Origin: Anaerolineaceae bacterium
GTDB lineage: Bacteria > Chloroflexota > Anaerolineae > Anaerolineales > Anaerolineaceae
Assembly: GCA_017417055.1 (NCBI GenBank)
Contig: JAFPZX010000129.1
Span: 1 to 61,618, forward strand
Reading direction: 5' to 3'
Length of the DNA: 61,618 nt
Below, piece after piece: positions 25,571 to 47,347 of this stretch. Numbering within the stretch: the first letter of the stretch is position 1; the number at the start of each line of letters is the position of its first letter. The notes below the pieces were generated by a model. The model made no database searches, had not been told where the DNA came from, and saw nothing but the letters and a program-made list of their open reading frames with translations. A program made the position numbers and the translations under genes.

Positions 25571-25601
25571 ATAACAACCCGGAAAACAGGGAGAGGTGCG
25601 G

Positions 25602-27233
25602 ATGCCGACATTGGAATGGATCGGGAAGAGCAAGGTGGTGAACCATCATCTGGATGTGCCCTACTGCGTGCTGGAACGGAAGTACAGCTATGACGCGGAA
25701 GGACAGCATGAGGCAGACAACGGCTCTGAAAACATGATCATCCACGGGGACAACCTCACCGCGCTCAAATCCCTGCTGCCGCGCTTCGAAGGGAAGGTCA
25801 AGTGCATTTACATCGACCCGCCCTATAACACCGGCAACGAGAACTGGATCTACAACGACAACGTCAACGATCCCCGCATCCGCGAATGGCTGAATAAAGT
25901 GGTAGGAAAGGAAGGTGAAGACCTCTCCCGCCACGACAAATGGCTCTGCATGATGTACCCCCGCCTCCGTCTGCTGCAAAAACTCTTAGCGGATGACGGA
26001 TTAATAGCTGTTTCTATTAATGATACGGAATTATTCAATCTCGGTTATCTGATGAACGATATATTTGGAGTAAACAATCTTTTAGCCTGTGCGCCACTCC
26101 GTTCTGAACCCAGTGGAGGCAAAGATAAAACCGTATTACGAACCGGGCATGAATATATATTGTTTTACTGTAATGGAGATCAAAGTTCTCTTTCAAAAGA
26201 AGAAAAATCAACTGGTGAATTGAATCTTCGGGATAAAAAGGGTGCATACAGAAAAGGTCGTGAATTAAGAAAATGGGGTGCGACCTCAGATCGTAAAGAT
26301 CGTCCAAATTTATGGTTTGGTATAAAAAATCCAAATGGAGAGATAGTCTATCCATATAAAAATGATGGAACCGAAGGATATTGGCGTTGGGGTAGAGATC
26401 ACAAAGGAATGGCTGAAATATTAGATGATCCTGATTTAGCCCATTGGGAATATTGTCAATATGATGAAGGTATAACAGTAAATGGGGAAACACACAGATG
26501 GGTTCCTTATGAGAAAATCAGAGATTCTAAAAAATCGTTCGGGTGGAATAGTTGGCTCGATGGTTATGGTACAAATGCTGACGCCACAGAAGTGATTAAA
26601 AATATTTTTGGATCAAAAATTTTCGAAACACCTAAACCATTATCTCTCATTGAATGGATCATTTCTTTACAAAGTGATGATAATGCCCTCATTCTCGACT
26701 CCTTTGCCGGATCAGGGACAACCGCGCACGCGGTTTTGAACATGAACAAGGCCGACGGCGGGAAGCGCCGCTTTATCCTGATTGAGATGGAAGATTATGC
26801 CGACGCCATCACCGCCGAGCGCGTCAAACGTGTCATCAAGGGGTACGGGGAAGGCAAAAAGGCCGTGGAAGGCACCGGCGGTGACTTTTCCTTCTATGAG
26901 CTGGGCGTCCCCGTTTTCAGCGGCGGCAGCCTCAACGAAGCCGCCGGGACCGATGAGATCCGCAAATATATCTGGTACACGGAAACTCGTCAGGAGCTGC
27001 AATCAGCAAAAGCAAATGAACCGTATTTTCTGGGAATCCATTTCGACACCGCTTACTACTTCTGTTATGAACCCGGGCAGCAGACTTCTCTGAACCTCGA
27101 TTTCCTGAGCACCATCAAAACCCGCACTGAGTCCTACGTGATCTACGCCGACCGCTGCTTTCTCAGCGACGACCAGCTGGACCGATTTCACATCACCTTC
27201 AAAAAAATCCCCCGCGACATCCCCCGCGTTTAA
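25602..27233 (+). CDS. mod: Type III restriction-modification DNA methyltransferase (Mod), N6-adenine, beta class
   Basis: The enzyme methylates adenine within an asymmetric site and provides sequence recognition for the Res nuclease. Motif IV DPPYNTG (about residue 71) precedes motif I FAGSGTTAHAV (about 367), the beta-class order. Between them is a variable target-recognition region of about 220 residues (about 140-360) that is more AT-rich than the flanks, consistent with domain swapping. I chose the ATG at 25602 behind GGGAGAGG over a GTG two codons upstream. Its Res partner is 1.3 kb downstream, separated by two opposite-strand genes and a TA remnant. Dispersed palindromes lie on both sides of this gene. 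Confidence 0.93.
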   Translation: MPTLEWIGKSKVVNHHLDVPYCVLERKYSYDAEGQHEADNGSENMIIHGDNLTALKSLLPRFEGKVKCIYIDPPYNTGNENWIYNDNVNDPRIREWLNKVVGKEGEDLSRHDKWLCMMYPRLRLLQKLLADDGLIAVSINDTELFNLGYLMNDIFGVNNLLACAPLRSEPSGGKDKTVLRTGHEYILFYCNGDQSSLSKEEKSTGELNLRDKKGAYRKGRELRKWGATSDRKDRPNLWFGIKNPNGEIVYPYKNDGTEGYWRWGRDHKGMAEILDDPDLAHWEYCQYDEGITVNGETHRWVPYEKIRDSKKSFGWNSWLDGYGTNADATEVIKNIFGSKIFETPKPLSLIEWIISLQSDDNALILDSFAGSGTTAHAVLNMNKADGGKRRFILIEMEDYADAITAERVKRVIKGYGEGKKAVEGTGGDFSFYELGVPVFSGGSLNEAAGTDEIRKYIWYTETRQELQSAKANEPYFLGIHFDTAYYFCYEPGQQTSLNLDFLSTIKTRTESYVIYADRCFLSDDQLDRFHITFKKIPRDIPRV

Positions 27234-27268
27234 AGCACACGAGGTCAGCTCTCTTGCTGCCGCGCAGC

Positions 27269-27298
27269 CGGGGTTTGTCCCTTTATGGGACAGTCCCA
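27269..27298. repeat. Dispersed palindromic repeat, copy 7
   Basis: GGGTTTGTCCC, TTTAT, GGGACAGTCCC, 36 bp behind the mod stop. Copies 5-6 before and copy 7 after mod bracket the methylase gene. Confidence 0.78.
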
Positions 27299-27444
27299 TA
27301 ACGTGGCCAAGCATTGTTCATACTTGAAATTATCTTATTCATTGTGCTTTCTGGTAATCCAATCCGGAAAATGGCAGAAGCACGTGTAATTCTCGTATTT
27401 TCCAAAAATGGATTTCGGCATATTGCCATATGCTAAGACCTTCT

Positions 27445-27813
27445 TTAATCTTGTTCATAAATCGGATGACGGAAATCTTCATCATCCATCCAGACGATCT
27501 CTTTTTGAACCTCTCGGAAAGCTTTTCCTTCAAAAATATTTGCATATAGGAAATTTCTTTTGATTTTTTCCATATCTTTGTCACGTACATCATAAACGAT
27601 CTTGTAATCAACAAGATTATCATCTTTTGTGCGATAACTGCGGTAACAGGTTTCATCTGTGATTTCAACTTTCCAGCGGCGCACTTGGAATGAATAATCC
27701 GAGGTCTCTTCATTCCACCAGCCCTCACACCAATAAAGATAACCGTTATAAAACAATTCCGCTTCACTGTACCAACCGGTGTCTAAAAATTGCTTCAGTG
27801 ATCCATTAATCAT
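27445..27813 (-). CDS. Hypothetical protein, second gene of a two-gene unit
   Basis: The protein of about 122 residues (from ATG at 27813) overlaps the preceding stop as ATGA, so the two genes are coupled. It is aromatic- and acid-rich (GWYSEAELFYNGYLYWCEGWWNEE, broken by DYSFQVRRWKVEITDE). No known family or catalytic motif is recognised. Its compact acidic character would suit an antitoxin or immunity protein for the gene before it, but this is only an inference. It interrupts a type III restriction locus on the opposite strand. Confidence 0.55.
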   Translation of the reverse strand: MINGSLKQFLDTGWYSEAELFYNGYLYWCEGWWNEETSDYSFQVRRWKVEITDETCYRSYRTKDDNLVDYKIVYDVRDKDMEKIKRNFLYANIFEGKAFREVQKEIVWMDDEDFRHPIYEQD

Positions 27814-28007
27814 ATTCCGTATATCTCCCAATATTTTTTATACTTTTTTATTTTTTCAGCTGTTAATGGCATCGCCGGGACACGACTTAAATCAGGTCTA
27901 AAAGTATGCATATGCAGCACAGGTTCCCCTTGTTTACCGGAAATTTTCGGCTCCGGATGATAGGCTATTTCCCAAACAGGCCGTTTTTCTTCATTATAAA
28001 CTCTCAT
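27810..28007 (-). CDS. Hypothetical small protein, first gene of a two-gene unit
   Basis: Sixty-five residues from ATG at 28007. The frame is open upstream to about 28080 and reads plausible protein (CRIFICENKYGFIKE), so the true start may be earlier or lost. Visible features are YNEEKRPVWEIAYHPEP, PVLHMHTFRP and a basic end (LTAEKIKKYKKYWEIYG). The layout vaguely recalls small toxin domains of polymorphic-toxin or phage-associated proteins, but I cannot assign a family. Its stop overlaps the next start. Confidence 0.45.
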   Translation of the reverse strand: MRVYNEEKRPVWEIAYHPEPKISGKQGEPVLHMHTFRPDLSRVPAMPLTAEKIKKYKKYWEIYGI

Positions 28008-28174
28008 TTCTTTAATGAAACCATATTTGTTTTCACAAATAAAAATTCTGCATCCCTTGGATACGCGCTTTAGAATATTGAATTTTTATGATAAAATATT
28101 GATAAAATATAGCATCTTCAAGGGTCGTTTCCAGGGACTACTCTGAATAGATACGATAAAACACGGAGCCTACT

Positions 28175-28438
28175 ATGATTCAAATCAAACCCGTTTCCGA
28201 TTTACGAAATAAATTCTCTGAAATTGAAACGATTGTTAATAACGGAGAACCGGTTTTTCTGACAAAAAACGGCTATGGGGCGATGGTCGTTCTCAGTCTG
28301 GAGGAATATTCAAACCTGACAGGAAATATCGAAAAAGCATTGATCCAGGCTGAAACCGCTGCTGAGTCAAATCCGACGCGTTACACCCGCGATGAGGTTT
28401 ATTCCATGCTTAAGGATCGGATTAATGCAGCAAGATAA
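28175..28438 (+). CDS. Phd/YefM-type antitoxin
   Basis: The 87-residue protein matches the prevent-host-death antitoxin fold: PVSDLRNKFSEIETIVNNGEPVFLTKNGYGAMVVLSLEEYSNL forms the DNA-binding N-terminal half. The C-terminal tail (SNPTRYTRDEVYSMLKDRINAAR) would wrap the toxin. It overlaps the start of a truncated ParE-like toxin by 14 bp, the normal TA arrangement. It lies inside the type III restriction locus, directly before res. With the toxin cut short it is probably a leftover. Confidence 0.88.
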   Translation: MIQIKPVSDLRNKFSEIETIVNNGEPVFLTKNGYGAMVVLSLEEYSNLTGNIEKALIQAETAAESNPTRYTRDEVYSMLKDRINAAR

Positions 28439-28532
28439 TTTCAGGCTGGAATTTATCCCCTTATTTTATGAAGACATGGGTGAAATCGTCGATTATATAG
28501 CAAGCACATTAAGGAATAGGCCTCCCCTGTAA
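28425..28532 (+). pseudogene. ParE/RelE-type toxin, truncated after about 35 residues
   Basis: The frame reads FRLEFIPLFYEDMGEIVDYI then ASTLRN, the first helices of a ParE-like toxin (family length about 95-105). It then stops at TAA 28530-28532, twelve bases before res. The missing two thirds carry the toxic C-terminus, so it should be inactive. The break point marks a deletion or rearrangement that joined the TA module to res. Confidence 0.72.
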
Positions 28533-28543
28533 AAGAGGTTTGA

Positions 28544-31207
28544 ATGGAACTGAAATCATATCAAAAAAAGGTACTCAGCGATCTCTCCGCCTATCTGGAT
28601 GCGGTGAACGAGACCGCGAACCTGCGCAAAGCCTGGGATAAATTCTGGAATGACAAGGATATCGCCGTAGGCTGGGAAGGCATTCCTCAGTACCGATACA
28701 CCATTCCCCATGTCCCGCACATCTGCCTCAAAGTTCCAACCGGCGGCGGCAAAACCTTTATCGCATGCTCCGCCGTCAAACCCATTTTTGACCATCTCCC
28801 TGCGGGAAAGCCAAAAGTCGTGATCTGGCTGGTCCCTTCCGAATCCATTCTCACCCAAACCATCCTGACCCTGTCTGATCCGGAGCATCCCTACCGGCAG
28901 CGTCTGAACAAAGACTTCTCCGGCAGGGTCGGCGTCTACAGCAAAGAAGCACTCCTCACCGGGCAGAACTTCTCCCCGGACACGGTACGCGAAATGCTGA
29001 CCGTCTGCGTGCTTTCCTACGCCTCCCTGCGCATTGACAACCGGAAAAAAGATGTGCGCAAGGTCTATCAGGAAAACGGGAACCTGATGCGTTTCGCGGA
29101 AGCCTTCGCGGATCGGCAAGCCCTGCTTGCAGACACGCCCGATACCGCCCTGATTCAGGTGCTGCGGAAACTTGAACCCGTGGTGATTGTTGATGAAAGT
29201 CACAACGCCGGTTCGGAGCTGAGCATTGAAATGCTCAAACGCCTGAACCCGTCCCACATTCTGGAGCTCACTGCCACCCCGCGTCAATCCTCCAACATCC
29301 TCTGCTATGTCGATGCACGGGAACTGAAGCGGGAAAACATGGTCAAGCTGCCGGTAATCGTTTACAACCGCTCATCCCGCCAGACCGTCATCAGCGACGC
29401 CATCCGGCTGCGCGGCAACCTGGAGCAGCAGGCAAAAGCCGAGCGAAAGGCCGGCGGCGCCTACATCCGCCCGATCGTCCTCTTTCAGGCCCAGCCCAAC
29501 ATCGGTGAAGACAGCGCGACTTTTGAAAAACTGCGGAAGATGCTCATTGAAAGCGGGATCCCGGCAGAACAAATCGCGGTCAAGACCTCCGAGATCAATG
29601 AATTGGGAAAGACGGACCTGATGCGGGAAGACTGCCCGATCCGTTATATTATTACGGTCAACGCGCTCAAAGAAGGCTGGGACTGTCCCTTTGCCTACAT
29701 TCTGGCCTCCCTGGCAAACAAAAGCTCACAAATTGACGTCGAGCAGATTCTCGGACGCATTCTGCGGCAGCCGTATGCCCGCGCGCATCAGGCGCCGCTG
29801 CTCAACACCTCTTTTGTGCTGACCTGTTCCAATGCTTTTCAATCCGTTCTGAACAACATCATCAAAGCGCTCAACCGCTCCGGATTCAGCAAAAAGGATT
29901 ACATGCTTCCGCAGGCAGCAGCGCAGCCGGATCCGGTGCCGGCAGCCGTCGGGACAAGTTCACCCGCTTCTGGAAAAATCGAAGAAGAACCGGAAAGCTG
30001 CGGATTTGATGACATTGATCCGGCAGAAATCAAAAGCATGATCGAACCGCAGGAACCAAACACCTCCGGTTCCGAACAGCAGGCTGCATCAGACCCGGGA
30101 GATCAGAACGACGAACTTTCCGCGATGATTTCTTCCGCAATCGAACAGGTAACGAATTACACAGATGCAGCAAATCAGGAAAATACGGACGAACCGTTCG
30201 GAGGGGAGATCAGTGACATGGTGAAATCCTGCAAAATCCAGCGAAAATTCAGGGAAGAAGTGAAGGATCTCCGAATCCCGCAGTTCGTCATGCCCAGGCC
30301 GTTTGATATTTTCGGCGGCGACATGCTGCTGGAGCCGGAACAGCTCAGTGAAAATTTTTCACTCAGTGGACAGGATGCGATCGTCAGCTTTGATATTGAT
30401 TCATCCGGACAGATCTACAAAATCGACCTGGATGAGGAGAATGACGAGGCGATTCCCAAATCCTACAAAGCCGAACAGCGGGAAAGCGACTATATCCGTT
30501 CCCAGCTGCAAAACAAAGCACCGAAAGAACGGATCAGCCAATGTGCCCGTTTTATCGCGGACCAGATTAATAAAAATGACCGACTCAATACTTCTGACGT
30601 AAGAGATTACGTGATGCGGGTCATCAACGGCATGAACGAGGATGATCTGGCAGCCATGGAGACTTCCATTCCCCTTTATGCGCAAAAGATCCGCGAAAAA
30701 ATTGAAAATCTGGAAGATGCACACCGTGCCAATACCTTCCGCCTTTGGCTGGAAAGCGGGAAAATCACAGTCAAACCGATGTATAAACTTCCGGAAGCCA
30801 TCACGCCCTCCGATGTTATAGACAGCATCCCGAAATCGCTTTATGAAGCGGAGAAAAACGATCTCAACAACTTTGAATGGGACGTTGCGATGAAAATCGC
30901 GGCATTGAATAACGTCCGCTGGTGGCACCGCAACATTGACCGCAAAGGCTTCCGCCTGAATGGCCCTGTAAAGAATCACTATCCTGATTTTCTGGTGATG
31001 ACCGAATCCGGGAAGCTGGTTCTGGTTGAAACAAAAGGGGATTACCTTATCAACGATGACAGTAAGGAAAAGGTATCCCTCGGCAGAAGCTGGCAGAACA
31101 AAGCCGGTGAAAATTACCGTTACTTCATGGTTTTTCAGGATGTCAAACCTGACTGGGACGGTGCATTTACCCTGGATGACTTTTTGAAAATCATGAAAGC
31201 GTTGTGA
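28544..31207 (+). CDS. res: Type III restriction-modification helicase-nuclease (Res)
   Basis: Res hydrolyses ATP and cuts DNA with Mod when two unmethylated sites are found. Superfamily-2 motifs are present: motif I VPTGGGKT (about 64-71), motif II VDESH (about 215-219), motif III TATPR (about 242-246), and motif VI-like QILGRILRQPYAR (about 405). The C-terminal endonuclease core is visible (YPDFLVM, then LVLVETKGDYL, about 812-833), with D and ExK. A low-complexity acidic insertion occupies about 465-560 (IEEEPESCGFDDIDPAE...). The 887-residue length fits. It overlaps the convergent transporter gene by 17 bp at its 3' end. The start has AGAGG upstream. Confidence 0.93.
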   Translation: MELKSYQKKVLSDLSAYLDAVNETANLRKAWDKFWNDKDIAVGWEGIPQYRYTIPHVPHICLKVPTGGGKTFIACSAVKPIFDHLPAGKPKVVIWLVPSESILTQTILTLSDPEHPYRQRLNKDFSGRVGVYSKEALLTGQNFSPDTVREMLTVCVLSYASLRIDNRKKDVRKVYQENGNLMRFAEAFADRQALLADTPDTALIQVLRKLEPVVIVDESHNAGSELSIEMLKRLNPSHILELTATPRQSSNILCYVDARELKRENMVKLPVIVYNRSSRQTVISDAIRLRGNLEQQAKAERKAGGAYIRPIVLFQAQPNIGEDSATFEKLRKMLIESGIPAEQIAVKTSEINELGKTDLMREDCPIRYIITVNALKEGWDCPFAYILASLANKSSQIDVEQILGRILRQPYARAHQAPLLNTSFVLTCSNAFQSVLNNIIKALNRSGFSKKDYMLPQAAAQPDPVPAAVGTSSPASGKIEEEPESCGFDDIDPAEIKSMIEPQEPNTSGSEQQAASDPGDQNDELSAMISSAIEQVTNYTDAANQENTDEPFGGEISDMVKSCKIQRKFREEVKDLRIPQFVMPRPFDIFGGDMLLEPEQLSENFSLSGQDAIVSFDIDSSGQIYKIDLDEENDEAIPKSYKAEQRESDYIRSQLQNKAPKERISQCARFIADQINKNDRLNTSDVRDYVMRVINGMNEDDLAAMETSIPLYAQKIREKIENLEDAHRANTFRLWLESGKITVKPMYKLPEAITPSDVIDSIPKSLYEAEKNDLNNFEWDVAMKIAALNNVRWWHRNIDRKGFRLNGPVKNHYPDFLVMTESGKLVLVETKGDYLINDDSKEKVSLGRSWQNKAGENYRYFMVFQDVKPDWDGAFTLDDFLKIMKAL

Positions 31208-34302: not shown

Positions 34303-34330
34303 TTGACAAGTTTATCATTTAGATTATAAT
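34303..34330 (+). promoter_or_regulatory. Strong sigma-70-type promoter of the Abi_2 leader
   Basis: Consensus TTGACA (34303) and TATAAT (34325) are 16 bp apart. Transcription would begin near 34337, about 64 bases before the Abi_2 start codon. Confidence 0.75.
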
Positions 34331-34336
34331 ATATAT

Positions 34337-34388
34337 AGACTGATATACCAGTTTGTCCTCCGGTGTCCTTCGGGCCCGGGGGCTTTTT
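34337..34388 (+). ncRNA. Structured leader / possible small RNA of the Abi_2 gene
   Basis: Between the promoter and the abi gene lies a short GC-rich hairpin. The left arm CCTCCGGTGTCC (34357-34368) pairs with GGCCCGGGGG (34373-34382) across a TTCG tetraloop, with two bulged T residues. A TTTTT run follows (34384-34388). This has the form of a rho-independent terminator, so most transcripts would be RNAs of about 50 nt, with read-through giving the toxin mRNA. Abi_2/AbiF-type HEPN proteins have been reported with adjacent small RNAs (from memory). The assignment here is an inference from position and structure. Confidence 0.55.
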
Positions 34389-34400
34389 ATAAAGGCAGTT

Positions 34401-35363
34401 ATGACAGATAAAAAATTCAAAACACACAGACAACAGTTGAATATTCTGCGATCACGTGGAATGGTAATCGGAAAAGGTACGCAAGGATCAAGAGTAATCC
34501 AGATACTTAAGTGTGAAAATTATTATAACGTTATTAATGGCTATAAAGAATTATTCTTATCGCAAACTGCGACTCCTGATGCAGATGAACAATATAAAAC
34601 CGGTACGACATTTGATGAAGTATATGCGCTATACAAATTTGACAGAGAATTAAGAATCCTTTATTTACAATATATATTGAAAATTGAAAACACCTTCAAA
34701 ACTGTAATTGCACATGAATTTTCAGCTTTGTATGGTCATGATAATTATCTGAAAATTGAAAATTTTGATATTTCTACAGAACAAAAATTATCGTCAGTTA
34801 TTCAAATGATTGGGGATATACAGCAGGAATTAGCCCGACAAATGAGTAAACATCATAATGCTGTTACACATTATATGACACAATATGGTTATATCCCTCT
34901 GTGGGTTCTTGTGAATGTATTGACATTTGGAAAAATAGAAAAGTTTTATAAAAACATGAAACAAGCAGATAAGGTGACCATATCCAGACAGTTCAGACTT
35001 CAACCTGATGAACTTGCAAAATTCATGCATATGCTGACCCTTGCCAGAAATAAATGTGCTCACGACGAAAGATTTTTTGACATACGTTTCAAAGAACGCA
35101 TTCATACCAGAAGTATATCCAATTTTTCAGTTCTGGGAATTGTCAGAGCTCCGGACGGGTCCTTTACTTCTGGAACGAACGATGCTTATGCAATCTTGAT
35201 AATGTTTGCATTATTACTTAGTAAATCAGAACTGAAAGATTTTGTGACCTCTATAAAAACACTCTTTAAAAATTTGAATAAAAAGCTGCATGTAATCTCA
35301 ATAATCGATGTTATGAATGTTATGGGATTTGGTTTGTCCTGGGAAAATTTGACTCAATTATAA
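34401..35363 (+). CDS. Abi_2 family abortive-infection protein (AbiD/AbiF-like HEPN ribonuclease)
   Basis: The 320-residue protein shows the Abi_2 layout: QLNILRSRGMVIGKGTQGS and LKCENYYNVINGYKELFL at the N-terminus, FDEVYALYKFDRELRILYLQ and KIENTFKTVIAHEFS in the middle, and GYIPLWVLVNVLTFGKIEKFY. The HEPN catalytic signature ARNKCAHDERFFD (R-x4-H, about residues 216-221) follows. HEPN proteins of this type cut RNA and stop phage growth by shutting down the cell. I chose the ATG at 34401; an upstream TTG frame runs through the terminator-like hairpin and is unlikely. It has its own consensus promoter and structured leader, and is AT-rich compared with the flanking housekeeping genes. Confidence 0.88.
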   Translation: MTDKKFKTHRQQLNILRSRGMVIGKGTQGSRVIQILKCENYYNVINGYKELFLSQTATPDADEQYKTGTTFDEVYALYKFDRELRILYLQYILKIENTFKTVIAHEFSALYGHDNYLKIENFDISTEQKLSSVIQMIGDIQQELARQMSKHHNAVTHYMTQYGYIPLWVLVNVLTFGKIEKFYKNMKQADKVTISRQFRLQPDELAKFMHMLTLARNKCAHDERFFDIRFKERIHTRSISNFSVLGIVRAPDGSFTSGTNDAYAILIMFALLLSKSELKDFVTSIKTLFKNLNKKLHVISIIDVMNVMGFGLSWENLTQL

Positions 35364-36939: not shown

Positions 36940-38256
36940 ATGAATGATTATAACTTCGGAAATTATATTTATAAGCTTCGGATTCAGGCAGGGCTTTCAC
37001 AGTCAGAATTAGGTGCTTATCTTGGCGTAACCAATAAGGCAGTATCTAAATGGGAAGTTGGCAAAGCAAAACCGGGCGTGGACACTATTCGGAAACTTGC
37101 TGCGCTTTTTGGTGTCAGCGTAGACGAGCTGCTGAAAAAGAGAAATGGGGCAAAAGCGGTTGAAGTTACAAAAATTGTAATTACCGGCGGACCATGCGCC
37201 GGTAAATCGACAGCAATGAGCTGGGTACAGAATGCTTTTACTCAAATGGGCTACACTGTTCTGTTTGTCCCGGAAACTGCGACGGAACTTATCACAGGCG
37301 GTGTTGCTCCCTGGACATGCGGTTCGAACAGAGAATATCAGCAGTGTCAGTTCCGTCTGCAGCTTGAAAAAGAGAATGTCTTTGAATATGCGGCAAAAAC
37401 GATGAATGCCACCAAGGTATTGATCGTCTGCGATCGTGGAGCTCTGGACAATAAAGCCTATATGGACAACCTTGAATTTACGCAGGTGTTGGAGTTACTT
37501 GGCACGAACGAGATCGAATTGCGGGATAATTATGATGCAGTATTTCACCTTGTTACAGCTGCAAAGGGGGCAGAAGAGTTTTATACAACTGCGAATAATG
37601 CGGCAAGAACAGAGACAGTTGAGGAAGCCGCAGCGCTTGATGATAAATTAATCTCGGCATGGACTGGTCATCCGCATTTTCGTGTGATAGATAATACCAC
37701 CAACTTTAAAGACAAGATGCGCCGGCTGATTGCGGAAATCTCGTCATTCCTCGGAGAACCTGAACCGTTCGAAGTTGAGCGTAAATTCCTTATAGAATAT
37801 CCTGATATAAAATGGCTTGATTCTTTAACCAACTGTCAACGCATCGAAATAATTCAAACATATCTGAAGTCGGATCGTGATGAAGAAATCCGCGTACGTC
37901 AACGTGGATTAGAAGGGCATTATATTTACTTTCAGACAATCAAGCGTAAAGTCAGCGAAATTAAGCGTGTAGAGATTGAACGCCGCCTGTCCGAAAGCGA
38001 GTATATACGTCTTTTGATGAATGCGGACACGACCAGGAGACAGATACGCAAGGATCGCTACTGTCTTACATATGAGAATCAATATTTTGAGATTGACGTC
38101 TATCCGTTCTGGGATGACAAGGCAATTGTTGAAATCGAACTATGCGATGAAAATGCAGAAATCACATTTCCGAATCAAATAAAAGTGATTAAAGAGGTTA
38201 CAAGTGATGAATCATTCAAAAATGCTTCGTTAGCACTAAGAGAAAGGGGTAATTAA
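36940..38256 (+). CDS. XRE helix-turn-helix + AAA_28 ATPase + CYTH-domain fusion protein
   Basis: Residues 1-68 are an XRE DNA-binding domain (YKLRIQAGLSQSELGAYLGV, TNKAVSKWEVGKAKPGVDTIRKLA). Residues about 77-265 form an AAA_28 kinase-like NTPase with P-loop GGPCAGKST (83-91) and a VCDRGALDNKAYM strand. Residues about 275-435 are a CYTH domain with the metal/triphosphate motif EVERK (E-x-E-x-K), IRVRQRG, KRVEIERRLS and FEIDVYPFW. CYTH proteins hydrolyse or bind triphosphorylated compounds such as thiamine triphosphate or inorganic triphosphate. AAA_28-CYTH pairs also occur in eukaryotic TTD14-like proteins. A promoter-binding sensor of a triphosphate metabolite is a plausible reading. The next gene follows without a gap. 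Confidence 0.82.
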   Translation: MNDYNFGNYIYKLRIQAGLSQSELGAYLGVTNKAVSKWEVGKAKPGVDTIRKLAALFGVSVDELLKKRNGAKAVEVTKIVITGGPCAGKSTAMSWVQNAFTQMGYTVLFVPETATELITGGVAPWTCGSNREYQQCQFRLQLEKENVFEYAAKTMNATKVLIVCDRGALDNKAYMDNLEFTQVLELLGTNEIELRDNYDAVFHLVTAAKGAEEFYTTANNAARTETVEEAAALDDKLISAWTGHPHFRVIDNTTNFKDKMRRLIAEISSFLGEPEPFEVERKFLIEYPDIKWLDSLTNCQRIEIIQTYLKSDRDEEIRVRQRGLEGHYIYFQTIKRKVSEIKRVEIERRLSESEYIRLLMNADTTRRQIRKDRYCLTYENQYFEIDVYPFWDDKAIVEIELCDENAEITFPNQIKVIKEVTSDESFKNASLALRERGN

Positions 38257-39135: not shown

Positions 39136-40032
39136 ATGGATAATATTGAGATTTTCACTGATTCACAAAACAGAATACACGGAAATCGGGAATTACTCAA
39201 AAGAACTGAAGCATCAATTCGTAATACTTCTGTTATCAATGAAGGGTTTCTATCAAATAAAACCCCTTATTTTTCTGACTGTCATGTTTTTTTTGAGGAA
39301 AACCTGACTTTAATTTCAGCATATAAATTCACTGACAAAGGATTGAAAACTGCCATTCTGAATTTTGCCAACCCGGTAGAACCGGGAGGCGGGGTTCTTC
39401 GAGGAGCTTCAGCTCAGGAAGAATATTTGTGTCGTGCAAGTAATTTATATCCATGCTTAATCAGTGAGCAAGCTAAGGACTTTTATATTAAGCATAATAA
39501 AATTTTGAAACACAATCAATTCAAAAGTGTGTTTTTGGCTACCGACATGCTGATTTATTCTCCGGATATTACTTTTTTTCGGGAAGATAAAAATTATTAT
39601 CCGGATATTGAATGCAACCCTTCTCAGGAGTATTCAGCATATTGGCGGTCTGTTGATGTTATCACCTGTGCTGCACCTTTCTTTAGCGAATCCGGTTATA
39701 TATTACCGGACGGCGATTTATACCATCTATTCTGCCGAAGAATCCAAAACATTTTCGAAGCGGCAATTGATCACAATGTTGAAGCTTTAATTCTTGGTGC
39801 ATTTGGGTGCGGAGCTTTTCATAATCCGCCAACTGTTGTAGCAAAAGCATTTCAATCTGTTCTTATGAAAGACCGTTATTTACATGCGTTCTCTAATGTT
39901 GTATTTGCTGTGAAAAGGAGTGGGTGGTTTAGCGAAAATATTGAGGCCTTTGAAATAGCGTTTCAAAAATTTCCTCCAACAGGTGAATATGTATTTAGTC
40001 CGGAAAGAAACAAGCGCCGATTTTTTGAATGA
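39136..40032 (+). CDS. TIGR02452-family poly(ADP-ribose) glycohydrolase-like macrodomain protein
   Basis: The signature of bacterial poly(ADP-ribose) glycohydrolases is clear at about residues 76-100: LNFANPVEPGGGVLRGASAQEEYLCR, which fits GGG-X(6-8)-QEE with the catalytic Glu pair. VFLATDMLIYSPDI and the late strand VEALILGAFGCGAFHNPP complete the macrodomain-like fold. The enzyme would remove ADP-ribose chains or ADP-ribose from proteins or nucleic acids. No ADP-ribosyltransferase is visible nearby. A strong GGGGG-type ribosome-binding site precedes the ATG. A GNAT acetyltransferase gene follows 47 bp later. Confidence 0.87.
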   Translation: MDNIEIFTDSQNRIHGNRELLKRTEASIRNTSVINEGFLSNKTPYFSDCHVFFEENLTLISAYKFTDKGLKTAILNFANPVEPGGGVLRGASAQEEYLCRASNLYPCLISEQAKDFYIKHNKILKHNQFKSVFLATDMLIYSPDITFFREDKNYYPDIECNPSQEYSAYWRSVDVITCAAPFFSESGYILPDGDLYHLFCRRIQNIFEAAIDHNVEALILGAFGCGAFHNPPTVVAKAFQSVLMKDRYLHAFSNVVFAVKRSGWFSENIEAFEIAFQKFPPTGEYVFSPERNKRRFFE

Positions 40033-43068: not shown

Positions 43069-43176
<108 letters not shown>

Positions 43177-47242: not shown

Positions 47243-47347
47243 GTCCGGACAGGTTTGCCGGCGGCGCCCAGTAGATCTGCCTTATTGCTGCTTCCTCTCG
47301 GACCTGACAAGGTTCGACAGTCCCCGCCGCGCCGGTCCCGCCCGAAC
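47243..47347 (-). ncRNA. ffs: Signal recognition particle RNA, small bacterial type
   Basis: On the minus strand the conserved apical loop is plain: TGTCAGGTCC, GAGAGGAAGCAGCA and ATAAGG. The ends pair (GTTCGGGCGGG with CCTGTCCGGAC). A TATGAT -10 hexamer lies seven bases upstream, and a T-run (ATTTTTTTAA) follows the stem. Size is about 105 nt. It binds Ffh and is essential for membrane-protein targeting. Confidence 0.93.

Follow-up and report, generated by a model that had tools for sequence, protein, structure and literature searches.

The stretch of DNA considered here (the window; 61,618 nucleotides (nt), contig JAFPZX010000129.1 of assembly GCA_017417055.1) stems from an Anaerolineaceae bacterium and carries a gene of the Abi_2 family, abi, which is preceded by its own promoter and a short hairpin leader proposed to be an RNA antitoxin (Table 1). 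Among 12 promoter-like sites between 33000 and 37000, only the one ahead of abi scores 12/12, and shuffles of the same region contained on average 6.2 (standard deviation (SD) 2.5) sites of at least 9/12. Likewise, nine terminator-like sites were found there, compared with 4.1 (SD 2.2) in the shuffles. The T5 run behind the hairpin ends (34388) 12 nt ahead of the abi ATG (34401). Judging from the -10 box, a transcript of ~52 nt is expected, extending from about 34337 to 34388. The initial annotation, made from the letters of the sequence, had claimed a TTGACA-16-TATAAT promoter, a hairpin with a T-run before the gene and an RNA of about 50 nt, all of which agree with this layout.

Table 1. Features of the abi locus (positions in the window)
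Feature	Position	Strand	Remarks
Sigma-70-type promoter TTGACA-16-TATAAT	34303..34330	+	12/12 consensus; TTGACA 34303-34308, 16-nt spacer, TATAAT 34325-34330
Predicted transcript, 5' part	34337..34354	+	small hairpin in the fold of the window
Conserved RNA element, class I, 37 nt, proposed RNA antitoxin	34347..34383	+	conservation in relatives
Unpaired GWWYG element (GUUUG in the window; GAACG in class II)	34351..34355	+	conservation of G
Hairpin: 7 base pairs, bulged U, 4 base pairs, UUC loop; doubles as intrinsic-terminator stem	34357..34382	+	pairing, covariation
U-tract (U5/T5) of intrinsic terminator	34384..34388	+	sequence; homologues
Likely ribosome-binding site AAAGG	34391..34395	+	by eye
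abi gene, Abi_2 / AbiD-F HEPN RNase, proposed toxin	34401..35363	+	320 amino acids, intact
HEPN catalytic motif R-N-K-C-A-H, residues 216-221	35046..35063	+	invariant residues

The Abi protein is assigned to Abi_2 by Pfam (E 7.9e-49; 166.9 bits against a curated cut-off of 25.6) and to AbiD by PADLOC (1.1e-60; 203.7 bits), with no NCBIfam match at E 0.001. A phmmer search found the 'Abi family protein' of 8vz6 at 1.5e-21, and a comparison by VIA-align on the candidates of Foldseek matched the fold to the complex of PbAbiF with its non-coding RNA (ncRNA; PDB 8vz6; 29% identity). In 22 aligned proteins, R216, N217, C219, A220 and H221 are invariant. Both the HEPN R-x4-H motif and the AbiF fold, which characterize the Abi_2/AbiD-F group, are therefore present, and the intact motif read from the sequence beforehand is confirmed (RNKCAH, residues 216-221).

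A protein-first scan of genome contigs yielded 16 relatives (loci are numbered with L and genomes with G in the following), all of whose genomes (16/16) hold the RNA; as L013 begins inside the gene, 15 of them provided upstream DNA. All 15 feature GCCAGTTTGTCCTCCGGTGTCCTTCGGGCCCGGGGGC directly before the gene with 0-3 mismatches (one in the window copy), while the abi gene itself is broken in three of the 15 (L005, L016, L017). Scanned at the protein level, viral contigs gave no relative, and later DNA scans revealed one at 74% identity (L059); peptide scans thus miss relatives, and the 16 have to be regarded as a sample. For the 17 loci of the window's RNA class (class I) with intact genes (136 pairs), the 37-nt RNA showed a mean pairwise identity of 97.8% (minimum 89.2%), whereas third codon positions reached a mean of 45.1% and the DNA farther upstream, compared without gaps, 29.4%. 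A recent spread of the whole locus is consequently no explanation for the constancy of the RNA and, judged by these identities, strong selection acts on the element in its own right.

The region 34331-34389 folds at -24.6 kcal/mol (z -3.84), which was equalled by none of 200 shuffles, and three further cuts containing the hairpin reached z values of -1.96 to -2.80. The conserved unit comprises 34347-34383 and the U-tract, which is retained in homologues and interrupted in one (L015). The small 5' hairpin (34337-34354) was first assumed to be part of the RNA and was dropped because the homologues differ in sequence there; it is also absent from the fold of L002. Scans with the hairpin core and with model R1 revealed a second class of the RNA (class II, GAACGUACUCCGGUGUCCUUCGGGCCCGGGGUC), in which the closing pair C-G is replaced by A-U. 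Weak model matches (L086-L089) were excluded from all RNA counts as chance terminators, and two further candidates (L102, L104) could not be confirmed on inspection. For the covariation analysis, 32 of 37 distinct sequences were aligned, leaving out L048 (cut), L057 (weak, one insertion), L054, L060 and L093. In these copies, 99.1% of cells are paired in the consensus stem, and three stem pairs show changes on both sides (14 cells). The covariation score of 0.163, compared with 0.066 after shuffling, was reached by none of 500 shuffles, and structures slid along the alignment collapse. An alternative register of the stem (G9-C37, bulged U13), although preferred in single-sequence folds of class I, leaves more cells unpaired (89.6% paired) and was rejected as consensus. 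The GWWYG element, the bulge and the loop are near-invariant although unpaired, with the first and last G of GWWYG (G5, G9) being invariant.

The promoter keeps its position as well. Of 21 class I loci tested, 20 have a -10 box (at most one mismatch) at a distance of 18-22 nt ahead of G5, and 17 an exact TTGACA 16-17 nt farther upstream; L101 has none. For the class II RNAs linked to abi, 10 of 12 loci have a -10 box ending 5-6 nt ahead of G5 (0.67 expected; p at most 0.00025, post hoc since this spacing was picked after the class I result had been seen), from which transcription would start roughly at the conserved RNA's first base. Conservation and covariation of the hairpin had been set in advance as its test, which it passed, as the leader is near-invariant in 15/15 relatives, covaries in the 32 copies and retains its promoter position. 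The RNA fits no Rfam family, the best being NsiR1 with 17.1 bits against a required 39. For the abiF RNA (RF03085), the window RNA gave no match at the gathering cut-off or up to E 10, and a search of the window's genome with stricter filters found none either.

In frequency runs with stricter filters, which lose weak matches, model R1 found the RNA in 2/147 genomes of the window's own family, namely the window's and the same-genus G006, in 9/397 genomes in the family of G190 and, at E 0.01, in 12/246 genomes in the order of G199, where five of the 13 matches stay below 30 bits and are doubtful; model R2 found 9/391 genomes in the class of G190, some of them weakly. G006 carries the RNA without an adjacent abi, and PF07751 detects no Abi_2 in its genome. 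No good match of either RNA class was obtained in collections of named phages (50,697 records) and plasmids (72,556 records), which argues against a very wide spread of the window-type RNA. Abi relatives of protein P0001 occur in 261 plasmid records, none with an identity of at least 60%. Eleven of the 16 relatives belong to Lachnospiraceae, Roseburia, Butyrivibrio or Herbinix, the window's family being another. Moreover, the abi gene features a guanine-cytosine (GC) content of 30-37%, compared with mostly 42-62% on both flanks, although this contrast is qualified by a further drop past 38000. The unit of abi and RNA looks horizontally acquired.

Other Abi_2 genes feature leaders of their own. 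In the family of G190, 47/150 genomes contain Abi_2 at E 0.001. Thirty such loci were retrieved. The window-type RNA occurs in one of them (L165), and 27 were classified by eye (L143, L144 and L158 being unreadable): 21 show a leader composed of promoter, hairpin and terminator but of another type, and five show no such leader in the stretch inspected. The RF03085 cut-off was reached by one of 20 scanned loci (L155). Eight loci (L138, L142, L146, L149, L152, L156, L157, L161) share by eye a leader type 'B' (CAGTGATCGCGTTGCAGAAACCTGTGAGGCCTGCGACC in L142/L146), for which five scanned members (L138, L142, L146, L149, L152) gave no Rfam match and which is likely another undescribed antitoxin RNA. 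A leader type 'C' (AACAGAGTTGCCCGAAG...GGGGACCAGGCTGAG in L148/L150) precedes the Abi_2 genes of L148, L150, L160 and L162, and neither of the members scanned (L148, L150) matched Rfam. A maximum-likelihood tree of 52 proteins places types B and C, and class II apart from L054, in supported groups; in it, class I stands together with one long-branched row, and abiF-like leaders are scattered over several groups within one larger branch.

The locus is, with high probability, a toxin-antitoxin (abortive infection) module composed of a HEPN RNase and a short leader RNA, the hairpin of which very likely acts as antidote to the Abi toxin. The analysis itself provides the architecture, the extreme RNA conservation, the covariation, the conserved promoter and the agreement in fold with the AbiF-ncRNA complex; what we infer for this locus is its transcription, how strongly it terminates, the binding, the toxicity, the trigger and the defence against phages. 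The RNA-antitoxin role suggested by the initial annotation is thus supported by RNA conservation, covariation, promoter position, the PbAbiF-ncRNA match and the parallel to AbiFCd/RCd22 (PMC12373285). According to the proposed mechanism, the strong promoter would mainly produce the ~50-nt RNA ending at its own hairpin-terminator, and occasional read-through would give the mRNA of the AbiF-type ribonuclease. Termination at the short RNA would hold the toxin low in cis, while the free RNA may bind and inhibit the HEPN dimer, mainly via single-stranded GWWYG and the hairpin UCCGGUGUCC-UUC-GGGCCCGG with its bulge. Phage infection might then disturb the supply or stability of the RNA, whereupon unbound RNase would cut cellular RNA and growth would stop.

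Several points weigh against this interpretation. Taken by itself, class I shows weak, non-significant covariation (reached by 58/500 shuffles) because so little varies, and single-sequence folds of this class favour a slipped register at the stem base, which makes the exact pairs there provisional. L054 carries the class II RNA before a protein of a distant group. As simple patterns were used to label the leaders in the tree, the match of protein groups to leader-RNA types is indicative. Furthermore, the window hairpin combines conserved motif and terminator and is not recognized by RF03085, whereas RCd22 measures 88-132 nt and contains the abiF (RF03085) motif twice, with a terminator apart from them (PMC12373285). 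Besides, L054 (1493-2575), with its class II RNA and distant Abi_2, may be a case of an antitoxin RNA swapped between toxins.

The window-type RNA also occurs without a toxin. By pattern scanning, it was located in 27 IMG/VR records, of which 11 were matched by PF07751 and one (L060) stops inside an abi gene; accordingly, 15/27 viral records lack Abi_2, an absence that is no proof as such records are often fragments, and a ratio that is no population frequency as the patterns pick near-consensus RNAs. Lengths of 34 to 85 kilobases (kb) are reached by five of the 15, and merging related records ({L058, L064, L072}, {L067, L074}, {L094, L095}) leaves about 11 contexts. Two further candidates for orphan RNAs (L048, L049) were rejected as contig ends. 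In cellular genomes without Abi_2, the RNA lacks an adjacent abi at L030, L053, L056 and L081, and at L080 it follows a tRNA-Gly without adjacent abi in a genome (G613) with Abi_2 elsewhere. The copy of L030 (1501-1544), from a same-genus genome, is located beside ATPase-like and RloB-like open reading frames (ORFs; by eye). Some copies, mostly cellular ones, fit dead remains of former abi modules: L055 retains a short abi-like start followed by a stop, L101 weak fragments, L030 and L085 show altered stems or T-runs, and L103 and L105 are degraded. For the abi-free phage copies, such an origin is unlikely, as tblastn with nine abi proteins against 12 phage loci, from -300 nt to at most +1500 nt (~340 nt downstream in L092), found no meaningful remnant apart from one chance-level match in L069, the RNA is at consensus in most of these loci and, in L065, the end of a tRNA-Ile immediately precedes G5.

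PHROGs were assigned for 27 chosen neighbours of the toxin-free RNAs. Terminase genes follow the RNA in L058, L063, L065 and L079, and a phrog_36 transcription regulator stands upstream in four of the 11 abi-free phage contexts (L063, L071, L079, L094). Both observations would suit a hairpin that was originally a control element of phage late operons and is mimicked by the abi leader, so that phage antitermination switches the toxin on. Nevertheless, this has little probability, since the element is sporadic, being absent from all 21 loci that contain a terS related to that of L058 (27-55% identical) and from two relatives of the L094 phage (L107, L108; 73%), the flanks of L108 being alike as far as a preceding hairpin. 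Further contexts are next to integrases (L067, L068, L076), between head genes (L069) or directly after the tRNA of L065. HNH genes are found near the RNA in L071 and L094, and glycosyltransferase and RuvC-like genes flank it in L092. Moreover, five of the 11 contexts have -10 boxes of their own 5-6 nt ahead of the RNA (0.25 expected for this post hoc spacing), and L071 features an additional TTGACA-17-TATACT promoter upstream. Finally, that the hairpin is a cis attenuator only, lowering abi transcription without a free RNA, is very improbable: the terminator-like hairpin does precede the start codon, and down-regulation in cis by a terminator is reported for RCd22 (PMC12373285), but terminators need no fixed sequence, yet GWWYG, bulge and loop are near-invariant against 45% at third positions, and abi-free copies exist, five of them in phage contexts where a -10 box is positioned for initiation at the RNA.

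More interesting than the module itself are the toxin-free phage copies of its RNA, which may, with about an even chance, be an RNA counter-defence. A 5' pattern derived from abiF-like leaders matched 29 IMG/VR records, of which one contains Abi_2; those without it include records as long as 175, 156 and 137 kb. Flanks are shared by many of these 28 toxin-free records (about 19 contexts by eye), and most of their RNAs feature no clear U-tract. The RF03085 cut-off was passed by 12 of 17 scanned records. Among four named phages, it was passed by Aeromonas phage vB_AhaP_PT2, the complete T7-like genome of which carries an RF03085 RNA (44.4 bits) between connector and capsid-assembly genes and no Abi_2, while the blastn matches in SBSphiJ1, vB_SauM_VL10 and phiSHEF4 remained below it. 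In long viral records without Abi_2, abiF-like RNAs stand beside or among tRNA genes (L166:626-670, L167:519-562, L188:1830-1848, the last below the cut-off). At L031 (1484-1528), an RF03085 RNA precedes what reads by eye as a pair of HigB/HigA-like genes instead of Abi_2. Whether phages broadly carry stand-alone AbiF-type antitoxin RNAs as decoys against HEPN abortive-infection toxins is evenly balanced. If so, decoys would be a general RNA counter-defence, and from the type of leader RNA one could tell which Abi toxin a given phage evades. The title of a study by Rince and coworkers from 2000 reportedly speaks of a region of phage sk1 protecting phage 712 from AbiF, which RNA decoys might then explain; phage sk1 gave no match up to E 10 in a scan with the RF03085 model, a result that speaks neither for nor against the decoy idea. 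The presence of abiF RNA in phages is already published for cyanophage S-CREM1 and for three genomes of phages listed by Rfam, the available portion of that paper treating it as small RNA without a link to AbiF toxins (PMC9964418). In titles and abstracts, with most subscription journals and bioRxiv outside the scope, no paper describing the window-type RNA or decoy abiF RNAs was found.

Elsewhere in the window, a type III restriction-modification pair (25596-31207) consists of a methylase-like ORF (25596-27233, by eye) and a Res subunit (28544-31207; ResIII in Pfam, REase_III in PADLOC at 6.5e-84). A few genes downstream of abi, a protein with a PARG-like catalytic domain is encoded (39136-40032; PF10021, 3e-28), and another (36940-38256) combines helix-turn-helix, AAA_28 and CYTH domains. 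In addition, an S-adenosylmethionine (SAM) riboswitch (43069-43176, +) and the bacterial small signal recognition particle (SRP) RNA (47244-47343, -) are present.

Compared with known systems, the layout shares with type III toxin-antitoxin systems a terminator between RNA and toxin gene and one shared upstream promoter; the tandem-repeat antitoxin array of that type is absent, the RNA being single-copy in the window and in each of the 15 relatives. As in AbiF systems, a conserved structured RNA lies upstream of the toxin gene. The Rfam abiF RNA RF03085 is likewise a ~37-nt hairpin upstream of Abi_2 genes, found in phage records free of Abi_2 (PF07751), but differs in sequence; the window RNA is a new variant within the AbiF RNA-antitoxin kind. 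It adds an antitoxin type unrecognized by Rfam and very compact, with antitoxin and terminator in one ~37-nt hairpin. The protein of 320 amino acids with its fixed adjacent RNA further differs from Cas13 effectors, which are thought to descend from AbiF-type systems. The closest worked system is AbiFCd/RCd22 of the Clostridioides difficile prophage phi027, which is reported as a toxin and an RNA antitoxin acting in cis and trans, with terminator-based down-regulation as part of the cis mechanism (PMC12373285). An Abi_2 HEPN protein, an upstream RNA, a SigA-type promoter, a terminator before the gene and the RN-x-CAH motif are common to both. The PbAbiF-ncRNA complex (PDB 8vz6), described in PMC12373285 and PMC12737573, is the structural counterpart at 29% protein identity. 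ToxI forms pseudoknots from a repeat array, whereas the window RNA is a single hairpin. ToxN is not known to be a HEPN protein. Still, ToxIN resembles the proposed system in pairing an RNA antitoxin with an RNase toxin, and phage mimicry of this antitoxin by pseudo-ToxI is reported (PMC3475682). This escape route serves as a model for the window-type phage copies, which offer a concrete and testable case of AbiF-type defence being defeated by RNA mimicry.
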